DNA from: Acidaminococcus fermentans DSM 20731
GTDB lineage: Bacteria; Bacillota; Negativicutes; Acidaminococcales; Acidaminococcaceae
Direction of reading: 5' to 3'
Length of the DNA stretch: 64,000 nucleotides
Assembly (NCBI RefSeq): GCF_000025305.1
Contig: NC_013740.1
Location: 1,364,001-1,428,000 of the forward strand
Part shown: piece by piece, positions 38,180 to 40,858 of the stretch
How positions within the stretch are numbered: the first letter of the stretch is position 1
Layout of the letters: each line of letters opens with the position of its first letter
The notes under the pieces: model-generated
Told to the model about the DNA's origin: nothing
Database searches by the model: none
What the model saw: only the letters and a program-made list of their open reading frames with translations
Translations under genes and position numbers: made by a program

Positions 38180-39442
38180 ATGAACTCTATGATCCGCACA
38201 CTTCGTAAAATCCCCCTGATCCACCAGATCGCCGTTGGTCTCATCATCGGCATCCTGATTGCCGTGTTCCTCCCCGGCGCCGTGCCCGTGGTTGGCATCT
38301 TCGGCGACCTGTTCGTCCGGGCCCTGAAAGGGGTGGCTCCCCTGCTGGTATTCATCCTGGTGATGAACGCCATGGTCCAGCGGAAAGAAGGGGGCGACAC
38401 CCAGATGAAGCCCATCATCACCCTGTATGTGATCGGTACTTTCGCCGCTTCCATCGTGGGCGTGGTCCTTTCCTTCCTGTTCCCCCAGACCCTGATGCTC
38501 CAGCTGGGAAACGCCAAGGTGAATCCCCCCAGCGGCATTGCGGAAGTGGTCCACAACCTGGTGCTGAACATCGTGGACAATCCCCTGAATGCCATCCTGA
38601 ACGCCAACTACATCGGTATCCTGGCCTGGGCGGTGATCATCGGCCTGGCTCTCCACAAGGCGGCCAGCCCGGAAACCAAGCATGTGCTGGAAGACCTGTC
38701 CGCCGGCATCACCAAAGTGGTCACCTGGGTGATCCATTTCGCTCCTCTGGGGATCATGGGCCTGGTGACCCAGTCCATCAGCGCCAGCGGCCTGTCCGCC
38801 CTGATTTCCTATTTCAGCCTGCTGGGCGTGCTGCTGGGTTCCTATTTCCTGGTGGCCCTGGTGATGAACCCCATCATCGTATACCTGAACGTACGGAAGA
38901 ACCCCTACCCCCTGGTGTGGGCCACCATCAGGGAAAGCGGCATCTACGCTTTCTTCACCCGTTCTTCCGCCGCCAACATCCCGGTGAACCTGACCCTGTG
39001 CAAACGGCTGGGGCTGAACCCGGATACCTACACCATCTCCATTCCCCTGGGGGCCACCATCAACATGGCCGGGGCCTCCATCACCATTTCGGTGCTGAGC
39101 CTGGCCGCCGCCCATACCCTGGGCGTGGCTGTTGACCTGCCCACGGCCCTGCTGCTGTGCATCGTTTCCACCGTAGGGGCCTGCGGGGCTTCCGGGGTGG
39201 CCGGGGGTTCCCTGCTGCTGATCCCCGTGGCCTGTGCCTCTTTCGGCATCAGCAATGACATCGCCATGCAGGTGGTGGGCGTGGGCTTCATCATCAGCAT
39301 CATCGAAGACGCCTGTGAAACGGCCCTGAACAGCAGCAGCGACGTGCTGTTCACCGCCACCGCCGAATACGCCAGAAGAGCCCGGCTGGGGACCCTGAAG
39401 GCAGAGGATATGGTACCGAAGGAATTGGAAGAAGACGAATAA
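38180..39442 (+). CDS. sstT: Serine/threonine:sodium symporter
   Basis: A 420-residue member of the dicarboxylate/amino acid:cation symporter family, of the SstT subgroup that imports serine and threonine with sodium. Recognisable blocks: LIHQIAVGLIIGILIAV, ALKGVAPLLVFILVMNAM, TRSSAANIPVNLTLCKRLG and GAGGxSG-type VGACGASGVAGGSLLLIPVA. AAAGGAAG precedes the ATG. Divergent from trpS and convergent with the BASS gene; a shared bidirectional terminator lies right after it. Confidence 0.94.
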   Translation: MNSMIRTLRKIPLIHQIAVGLIIGILIAVFLPGAVPVVGIFGDLFVRALKGVAPLLVFILVMNAMVQRKEGGDTQMKPIITLYVIGTFAASIVGVVLSFLFPQTLMLQLGNAKVNPPSGIAEVVHNLVLNIVDNPLNAILNANYIGILAWAVIIGLALHKAASPETKHVLEDLSAGITKVVTWVIHFAPLGIMGLVTQSISASGLSALISYFSLLGVLLGSYFLVALVMNPIIVYLNVRKNPYPLVWATIRESGIYAFFTRSSAANIPVNLTLCKRLGLNPDTYTISIPLGATINMAGASITISVLSLAAAHTLGVAVDLPTALLLCIVSTVGACGASGVAGGSLLLIPVACASFGISNDIAMQVVGVGFIISIIEDACETALNSSSDVLFTATAEYARRARLGTLKAEDMVPKELEEDE

Positions 39443-39493
39443 AAAAGAGGTGTTGCACGTGTGAAAATCACACACGCGCAACACCTCTTTTTT
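39441..39493. terminator. Bidirectional terminator between sstT and the BASS transporter gene
   Basis: Stem GAGGTGTTGC/GCAACACCTC (39447-39456, 39478-39487) with an A-run on one side and a T-run on the other, so it can end transcription from both convergent genes. The loop holds a second small inverted repeat (GTGTGA/TCACAC). Confidence 0.9.
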
Positions 39494-40500
39494 CATTTCA
39501 CCCTCACCGGTACCGGTTCCATCCCTTCTTCTTCATACTGGGAATCGAACTTTTCATTCAGATAGTTGCTGTACAGGTAGGCCAGGACGGCACCGGAGAT
39601 GTTGTGCCAGGCACTGAAGATGGCTCCGGGGACACCGGCCATGGGCATGGCGGCGAAATGGGCCTTGGCCAGGCCGGTGGCCAGACCGGAATTCTGCATC
39701 CCCACTTCGATGGACAGGGCCACCATCTGTTTCCAGCTCATGCCGGTGAGCTTGCCGATGGCAAAGCCCAGCAGATACCCCAGCACATTGTGGAGCATCA
39801 CCACCAGGAGGATCAGTCCGGCGCTGTTCAGGATGGCGTTCCGGCTGGCTCCGATGATCCCGGCAATCAGGAAGCTGATCACCAGACTGGAAACGGCGGG
39901 CAGGTAATCCACCGCTTCTTTGGCGAATTTGGGGAAGAAGTTCTTCACCGCCAGGCCCACACCGATGGGCACGAACACGATCTGGAGGATGGAAACGAAC
40001 ATGCCCATGGGATCAAAGGCGATCTGCTTGCCCACCAGCAGCCAGGTCAGAAGCGGGGTCATGATGGGACTCAGCACCGTGGAGCAGCTGGTCATGGTCA
40101 CGGAAAAGGGCACATCCCCATGGCTCATGAAGGTGATCACGTTGGAGGACGTCCCGCCGGGGCAGGTGCCCACCAGCACCACCCCCACCGTCAGGGCTGG
40201 ATCCAGATGGAAGGCCTTGGAGAGCAGAAAAGCCAGGAAGGGCATGACGAAATACTGGGCACAGACCCCGAAGAAAATGTTCTTGGGCTGCTTCAGCACC
40301 AGGGCGAAATCGTGGAGGCTGGTGGTCATCCCCATGCCGAACATGATGATCCCCAGCATGACGCTGAGGATGGAGACCCCGTAGGCCTTCCCCAGCACCC
40401 AGGAAAAAGCATGGGGGGCGAAAAGCCCGATGCCCAGGAACACCACAGCGATGACGCCGAAATACTTGCCGATCAGTCCACAAACTTTTTTCAAACTCAT
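39493..40500 (-). CDS. Bile acid:sodium symporter (BASS) family transporter
   Basis: A 335-residue membrane protein with about ten helices. BASS family features: GIIMFGMGMTTSLHDFALVLKQP, GVVLVGTCPGGTSSNVITF, and the sodium-site region ALSIEVGMQNSGLATGLAKAHF. Bacterial members move organic anions such as keto acids or pantoate as well as bile acids. The T-box in its leader implies control by charging of a tRNA, so an amino acid or amino acid precursor is a likely substrate (inference). The ATG at 40500 has AGGATGAGG upstream; the open frame before it overlaps the T-box terminator. Confidence 0.9.
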   Translation of the reverse strand: MSLKKVCGLIGKYFGVIAVVFLGIGLFAPHAFSWVLGKAYGVSILSVMLGIIMFGMGMTTSLHDFALVLKQPKNIFFGVCAQYFVMPFLAFLLSKAFHLDPALTVGVVLVGTCPGGTSSNVITFMSHGDVPFSVTMTSCSTVLSPIMTPLLTWLLVGKQIAFDPMGMFVSILQIVFVPIGVGLAVKNFFPKFAKEAVDYLPAVSSLVISFLIAGIIGASRNAILNSAGLILLVVMLHNVLGYLLGFAIGKLTGMSWKQMVALSIEVGMQNSGLATGLAKAHFAAMPMAGVPGAIFSAWHNISGAVLAYLYSNYLNEKFDSQYEEEGMEPVPVRVK

Positions 40501-40528
40501 TTTCCTCATCCTTTCTTTTTCCGGAAAC

Positions 40529-40784
40529 AAAAAAGCCCCGTCCCCTGAAAGGGACGGAGCCATCTCCGCGATACCACCCAATTTCCCGCAGGCCTTGCAG
40601 CCCACAGGCTCTCTCAACGTACCAACATACGCGTTTCCACTAACGGGGATCAGCCGTACGGACTTATTTTTGCTTCAGTCCGTCTCTTCCGGGAGGATTT
40701 TCCTTTCGGCCAGGCCGCCGGTTCACACCATCCACCGGCTCTCTGGAGGCACGCATCCAGAAAGTACTCTTTCCCATCATCAGA
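40529..40784 (-). promoter_or_regulatory. T-box riboswitch in the leader of the BASS transporter gene
   Basis: The minus strand shows the full T-box plan. Stem I starts near 40784 with GGGAAAGAGTA (40775-40765). The distal loop region has AGAGAGCCGGTGGA and GGTGTGAACCGGC (about 40745-40716). The specifier side is around GAAAATCCTCCC (40702-40691). The T-box sequence GGGTGGTATCGCGG is at 40579-40566. An intrinsic terminator GCTCCGTCCC/GGGACGGGGC with a T6 run follows (40560-40529). Binding of uncharged tRNA would favour antitermination and raise expression. I cannot fix the specifier codon by eye; ATC (Ile), AAT (Asn) and TCC (Ser) are possible. Confidence 0.92.
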
Positions 40785-40821
40785 TTTCCTTATGCAATTG
40801 AGTTGCTTCTCTTTGAAAAGC

Positions 40822-40858
40822 ATGCCCTTATCTTACGAGGATAAGGGCATTTTGTCAA
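40822..40858 (-). promoter_or_regulatory. Promoter of the T-box/BASS unit with overlapping inverted repeat
   Basis: Minus-strand TTGACA (40858-40853), 17-base spacer, TAAGAT (40835-40830). A perfect 11-bp inverted repeat, ATGCCCTTATC/GATAAGGGCAT (40822-40832, 40840-40850), covers the spacer and the -10. It may be an operator; it could also act as the mgtE terminator, although no long T-run follows on the minus strand. Confidence 0.7.

Follow-up and report, generated by a model that had tools for sequence, protein, structure and literature searches.

In the genome of Acidaminococcus fermentans DSM 20731, we found that a BASS-family transporter gene, here called BASS-A, lies behind a T-box riboswitch that reads isoleucine, and that this pairing is conserved; the T-box, its specifier, the gene behind it and the conservation were each computed directly. 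We consider it likely that the isoleucine T-box switches BASS-A on and that BASS-A imports a branched carboxylate that is turned into isoleucine. BASS proteins tend to carry a bile-acid symporter annotation, and the shared isoleucine T-box wiring suggests import of an isoleucine precursor rather than of bile acids. The window (the whole stretch of DNA that was analysed, 64 kb) contains the following features around BASS-A:

40830..40858, minus strand: sigma-70-type promoter TTGACA-17-TAAGAT, 10/12 consensus, with a predicted start site
40547..40789, minus strand: T-box leader RF00230, full length from stem I to antiterminator, by the Rfam covariance model
40696..40698, minus strand: specifier codon AUC (isoleucine) in the context GAAA-AUC-C, from the sequence and the RF00230 alignment
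40566..40579, minus strand: T-box sequence GGGTGGTATCGCGG, which contains the UGGU bulge at 40576-40573
40524..40561, minus strand: intrinsic terminator GGCTCCGTCCC-TTTC-AGGGGACGGGGCT plus a T run, from sequence and folding
39493..40500, minus strand: BASS/SBF transporter BASS-A, 335 aa, with its best start at 40500 and its stop codon ending at 39493
39444..39490, scored on the minus strand: long hairpin of 20 pairs between the convergent BASS and sstT genes

The sequence-only reading of this stretch had placed a T-box riboswitch with all its main parts and an intrinsic terminator at 40529-40858, which matches the span from promoter to terminator, and had proposed an Rfam search and a specifier prediction as checks. 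Each part was recovered. The Rfam search gave a full-length RF00230 match at 40789-40547 on the minus strand (131.7 bits vs a gathering score of 93, E 5.2e-29, model positions 1-219), which places the element in the T-box leader family and is the sole Rfam match at gathering score within the window. At E <= 0.001, the genome (searched as one contig of 2,329,769 bases) has 17 T-box matches, of which 11 exceed the family cut-off, and the BASS-A leader ranks second. The specifier codon is AUC, for isoleucine, and the UGGU bulge could pair with a tRNA ending ACCA. A transcript start downstream of stem I had been named as speaking against the riboswitch, whereas the predicted promoter at 40858-40830 sits upstream of stem I. 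For the terminator, the folding energy is -22.7 kcal/mol (z -5.97), and 0 of 200 shuffles were as good; the antiterminator segment by itself did not outperform its shuffles (z 0.08). CUCCGUCCC, the 5' strand of the terminator, is common to the antiterminator (the pairs in the RF00230 alignment use the same strand), and the two structures are mutually exclusive. The hairpin at 39444..39490 is the probable shared terminator of BASS-A and sstT, presumably used on the plus strand as well. Overlapping the promoter there is also a perfect palindrome (ATGCCCTTATC-N7-GATAAGGGCAT, 40822-40850), present in genomes G003 and G007 and absent in G005, which may serve as the terminator of mgtE, as an operator, or in both roles.

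For the switching, the direction of transport and the substrate of BASS-A, we infer the following. The leader would be a transcription-attenuating T-box that senses the charging of tRNA-Ile. Uncharged tRNA-Ile would pair at two sites, the AUC specifier and (through its 3' end) the UGGU bulge; formation of the antiterminator would then allow transcription of the BASS gene. With charged tRNA-Ile, the terminator would form. BASS-A would import, probably with Na+, a branched carboxylate from which the cell makes isoleucine. We see two candidates for it: 2,3-dihydroxy-3-methylvalerate, on which IlvD acts, and the keto acid 3-methyl-2-oxovalerate. The leader is like transcriptional isoleucine-specific RF00230 T-boxes in having all the main elements, a UGGN bulge, a terminator and an amino-acid supply gene; it differs in that the gene that it controls encodes a BASS transporter.

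When we read the other T-boxes of the same genome by eye, naming the genes downstream by eye from their translations, we found AUC at the same place before ileS, ilvC and BASS-B (a second paralog with an isoleucine T-box, 37% identical to BASS-A). The remaining specifiers were GUC before valS, UUC before pheS, ACC before thrS, UGG before trpE, UCC before serA and CUG before leuA. AUC is found in 4 of the 17 T-box matches of the genome (ileS, ilvC, BASS-A and BASS-B), and in the BASS-A leader it fits the regulated pathway. A one-base shift, which would give an Asn (AAU) or Ser (UCC) specifier, is excluded by the register of ileS, ilvC, thrS, pheS, trpE and serA. The ileS and ilvC T-boxes have a UGGU bulge like the BASS-A leader, the serA T-box has UGGC, and the genome's tRNA-Asn ends G-CCA. 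We take tRNA-Ile to carry A73, which the UGGU bulge would fit; the bulge alone is no proof of tRNA identity because a G-U wobble with G73 is possible. The genome's tRNA-Ile was not found in the stretches beside two rRNA stretches. We regard the T-box element and its isoleucine specificity as near certain. Two further T-boxes of this genome were read by eye. One (L008, C1:1112790-1113035) has a CUG (Leu) specifier and a UGGU bulge and precedes a YkvI-like membrane protein (named by eye), which is possibly a leucine-linked transporter; the other (L010, C1:316388-316605), before a MetN-like ABC ATPase (also by eye), has a UGC specifier and a UGGA bulge, which suggests that it senses cysteine rather than methionine.

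The claim that this T-box controls a BASS-family transporter at 39493 was also borne out. BASS-A matches PF01758 at 151.9 bits vs a gathering score of 24.3, and so belongs to the Pfam family; the genome has 7 PF01758 matches, 6 over the cut-off and 5 of these above 130 bits. BASS-A is the sole gene in the T-box transcript, and the T-box acts on this transporter alone because it is followed by the convergent gene sstT. sstT (38180-39442 in the window) encodes a serine/threonine transporter and is likewise convergent to BASS-A in G003 and G007; threonine is an isoleucine precursor.

To describe the conservation of the linkage, we followed BASS-A and BASS-B orthologs and a longer list of protein-pattern matches in other genomes. 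In the close relatives G003, G005 and G007, the same leader precedes the BASS-A ortholog. In five genomes (G001, G002, G004, G006 and G019), the ortholog lies directly behind ilvD and the T-box lies before ilvD, and in G043 it is the last gene of a T-box-ilvC-ilvB-ilvN-ilvD-BASS cluster. A T-box is present at all 9 loci with BASS-B orthologs (at least 53% identity), our own included. As a point against the link, a T-box was not found at 15 of the 24 BASS-A orthologs of other genomes (L026-L049, 59-97% identity; 20 examined by Rfam and L046 to L049 by pattern scan); among these 15, L048 and L049 have almost no upstream DNA, and L046 and L047 (in G031 and G036, where wider stretches were also run against Rfam) lie beside panC. 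Among the best 80 named loci of the longer list, a T-box precedes BASS or ilvD-BASS in 11, which come from Megasphaera, a Veillonellaceae isolate, four Lachnospiraceae, Clostridium, Fournierella, Pygmaiobacter, Gemmiger and a Tissierellia genome; 10 of these T-boxes reach the gathering score and the one at L111 is below it. Three-mismatch pattern matches upstream of BASS at L106, L134 and L167 were left out of the T-box counts, and Rfam gave no T-box at gathering score for the ilvD-BASS loci L211 and L212.

The specifier is AUC in all 20 gathering-score T-boxes that lie directly before BASS (19 by script and L059 by eye). In the 12 T-boxes before ilvD-BASS (that of G043 via ilvC-ilvB-ilvN), it is AUC in 9 and CUC (Leu) in 3, and these three count as evidence against the isoleucine reading. 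Within the specifier region, the script sought ATC or CTC alone; reading by eye gave the same codons. A T-box sequence with AUC was also seen by eye in L111 and L071; L111 and L213, which covers the place of L071, score below gathering, and both L111 and L071 are outside the count of 20 and inside the 33 T-box rows of the tree described below.

In a clostridia sample, 8 of 293 genomes match the Gemmiger BASS at 1e-85; a T-box was found by pattern in Gemmiger alone and two loci are beside panC, with Rfam covering Gemmiger and the two panC-adjacent loci and the pattern scan the other five. Of 119 genomes of the Gemmiger family, 74 have an ilvD match, and T-box-ilvD-BASS is present in 3 of 30 loci examined. 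We mapped the T-box label (33 rows) onto a tree of 93 BASS proteins, made up of 45 labelled rows and a random draw of 48 unlabelled ones. T-box rows form several separate groups, and the label must have been gained or lost 9 times, with starred branches forcing at least 6 of these changes; this is a quick tree with SH-aLRT support only, labels come from the pattern scan, and gains and losses are not told apart. The isoleucine link of BASS genes was thus probably made more than once, and such repeated origin speaks for function over inheritance alone.

T-boxes and BASS proteins are each well known, and we found no report of the conserved pairing of an isoleucine T-box with a BASS gene. In the portion of its text covered, the 2008 survey of T-box-controlled transporters by Wels and colleagues names MFS, APC, NSS, DAACS, LIVCS, NhaC and ABC transporters and does not list BASS; an unspecified "sodium symporter (4x)" is also noted there behind distant T-boxes (PMC2494555). 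Neither the main text of the 2013 regulon survey (PMC3766115) nor that of the TBDB paper (PMC7778990) contains "bile" or "symporter". The search covered the titles of listed papers and main text or passages of those cited here, and we claim no priority. BASS-A is like T-box-controlled LIVCS (BrnQ) carriers, which are described in the same portion of the 2008 survey, in being, by prediction, a transporter induced by a lack of branched-chain aminoacyl-tRNA (PMC2494555); unlike them, it belongs to another protein family and its predicted substrate is a precursor acid, not an amino acid. Through this conserved isoleucine signal, a group of gut BASS proteins can be assigned to a defined pathway, and their possible substrates narrow to a short list.

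BASS-A is likely to import an isoleucine precursor, as judged from its regulation and gene neighbourhood. The sequence-only reading had proposed that the transporter imports an amino acid or the corresponding keto acid, which would give it a testable substrate. Import is supported by the isoleucine specifier and the conserved link, with isoleucine itself being the less likely cargo, and a short list of isoleucine precursors can indeed be drawn up; that reading named neither the amino acid nor a dihydroxy acid. The gene for IlvD, whose substrate is 2,3-dihydroxy-3-methylvalerate, adjoins BASS in many relatives. T-box-ilvD-BASS occurs in four genomes (a Veillonellaceae isolate, G062; Fournierella, G065; a Pygmaiobacter MAG, G066; and Gemmiger, G067) in which searches for KARI (at E 1e-3) and AHAS (at E 1e-100) found nothing. 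In such cells, the orphan IlvD would have work only if its substrate is imported, and these genomes, which are of unstated completeness, point to import of 2,3-dihydroxy acids. G006 likewise has T-box-ilvD-BASS without KARI and AHAS, but its genome is 85% complete. The three Gemmiger-type genomes are one lineage, and the evidence therefore amounts to two, perhaps three, independent cases.

A bolder reading, which we hold to be possible but less likely than not, is that BASS-A is the first carrier of 2,3-dihydroxy branched-chain acids, that isoleucine T-box-ilvD-BASS salvages intermediates of neighbours, and that BASS-B is the keto-acid counterpart. Gut bacteria that lack AHAS and KARI and keep ilvD would then live on released pathway intermediates, calls of branched-chain auxotrophy for such bacteria would be wrong or incomplete, and a pathway intermediate would be a traded gut metabolite. 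In the parts of the sources covered, engineered yeast releases dihydroxyisovalerate and ketoisovalerate (PMC5678825), and lamb serum, as opposed to gut fluid, has (R) 2,3-dihydroxy-3-methylvalerate among its metabolites (PMC10729572). The A. fermentans genome has ilvB, ilvC and ilvD, and therefore precursor import would be a supplement there.

It is possible, though we hold it in some doubt, that BASS-A instead imports 3-methyl-2-oxovalerate and its relatives, that an aminotransferase turns this keto acid into isoleucine, and that the ilvD linkage reflects a shared pathway only. 3-Methyl-2-oxovalerate is the product of IlvD, and plant BASS5 carries 2-keto acids according to the covered part of the ASBT_NM structure paper (PMC10645422). 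In G009, G026 and G035 (93-100% complete), an isoleucine T-box precedes BASS-B and there is no ilvC, ilvD or AHAS over the cut-off (G035 has one AHAS match, below it); a dihydroxy acid would be useless to these cells, which suggests that the substrate of BASS-B is a keto acid or other late precursor. However, keto-acid import by BASS-A leaves the retention of ilvD in the four genomes without AHAS and KARI unexplained. ASBT_NM was also not stabilised by ketopantoate, which its authors, in the part covered, ascribe to Asn 265 (PMC10645422), and the counterpart of Asn 265 is kept in both BASS-A and BASS-B. A class-IV aminotransferase (PF01063, 1e-20) was found in 25 of 32 genomes and not in Gemmiger G067, which counts against precursor import in general, although this search did not discriminate.

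Rumen anaerobes can form isoleucine from 2-methylbutyrate by reductive carboxylation, and G001 and G002 have ilvC and ilvD with no AHAS over the cut-off. Both points would suit import of 2-methylbutyrate, of another isoleucine-yielding acid (2-oxobutyrate or acetohydroxybutyrate) or of isoleucine, a set of alternatives that, with export of a side product, we judge unlikely. Export during isoleucine hunger makes little sense, and the BASS substrates in the covered part of the structure paper are organic acids, not neutral amino acids (PMC10645422).

The closest solved chains to BASS-A are 3zux, 3zuy and 8oyf (E 1.3e-78 to 2e-78), and 8OYF is the ASBT of Neisseria meningitidis (ASBT_NM). BASS-A is thus homologous to PanS, ASBT_NM and plant BASS1 (3zux, E 1.3e-78). 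When we transferred the pocket numbering by hand from the alignment of BASS-A with its solved homologues, the BASS-A pocket read FIMTSSNINSGHN at F15, I47, M48, T112, A113, S114, N115, I203, N265, S266, G267, H294 and N295. BASS-A keeps Thr112, Ser114, Asn115, Asn265, Gly267, His294, Asn295 and Ile203, and the pantoate contacts of the ASBT_NM complex, as given in the covered part of the structure paper (PMC10645422), are matched with a single change, A113 to Ser. The Na+ ligands named there are Ser 114 and Asn 115; their counterparts in BASS-A, S119 and N120, are invariant in alignment A2, and transport by BASS-A is probably coupled to Na+. The BASS-B pocket differs in having N295 replaced by Gln and G267 by Ala. 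At position 113, all 10 panC-linked rows have Ala, the T-box rows (n=33) have Ser in 20, Ala in 9, Gly in 3 and Thr in 1, and the unlabelled rows (n=96) have Ser in 32 and Ala in 64. Ser113 as a mark of specificity is not significant with 4 independent pairs and is a hint at most. A further BASS subgroup with AUC T-boxes (L071, L073 and L075, in G044, G050 and G045; 2 of 3 at gathering score) has Gly113 and, at 294-295, Glu/Gln followed by Tyr/Phe instead of His-Asn, and its substrate may differ.

This pocket, with the ASBT_NM contact residues nearly all kept, resembles that of a pantoate binder, and PanS (NF047939) is the second-best NCBIfam match of BASS-A, at 244.4 bits. Unlike members of these groups, BASS-A scores below the curated cut-offs of both PanS (400) and the TIGR00841 bile acid:sodium symporter subfamily (253.7 bits, cut-off 326.3), has Ser for Ala113 and an isoleucine T-box, and is without pantothenate linkage, with a separate panC-linked paralog in the same genome. 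It could still be a PanS-type transporter of pantoate or ketopantoate that is incidentally under isoleucine control, and panC is present in most Negativicutes with T-box-BASS. In G031 and G036, a BASS-A ortholog lies behind a pan motif and ahead of panC (PanC of G031 was confirmed by HMM), so that pantothenate-gene linkage is present for these two orthologs and for the third paralog of our genome, BASS-C, and absent for our BASS-A. However, it is BASS-C that adjoins panC in A. fermentans, as in 8 further genomes by coordinates; G003, which is 99% complete, keeps both T-box-BASS-A and T-box-BASS-B but lacks panC and, at E <= 1e-30, a third BASS; and at E <= 1e-40 panC is missing from 9 of 9 clostridial T-box-BASS genomes (G063-G071, with the T-box of G063 below gathering). 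These three observations disfavour pantoate as the substrate, isoleucine status is no report of pantoate need, and we consider this explanation improbable. Import of an isoleucine precursor thus stays our preferred reading for BASS-A. 2,3-Dihydroxy-3-methylvalerate is isomeric with pantoate (C6H12O4).

The pan motif was described in 2010 for operons of panB, panC and aspartate decarboxylase, in the part of that paper covered (PMC2864571), and a BASS gene in a pan motif regulon would point to a pantoate transporter. In A. fermentans (L201, C1:897000-907000), panC is followed by BASS-C with no pan motif at gathering score, and BASS-C is likely a pantoate carrier. Elsewhere, pan motif (RF01749) matches precede panC or a panC-adjoining BASS at L102 (7843-7935), L207 (2266-2358), L208 (5526-5629), L202 (8279-8367) and L197 (6545-6623).
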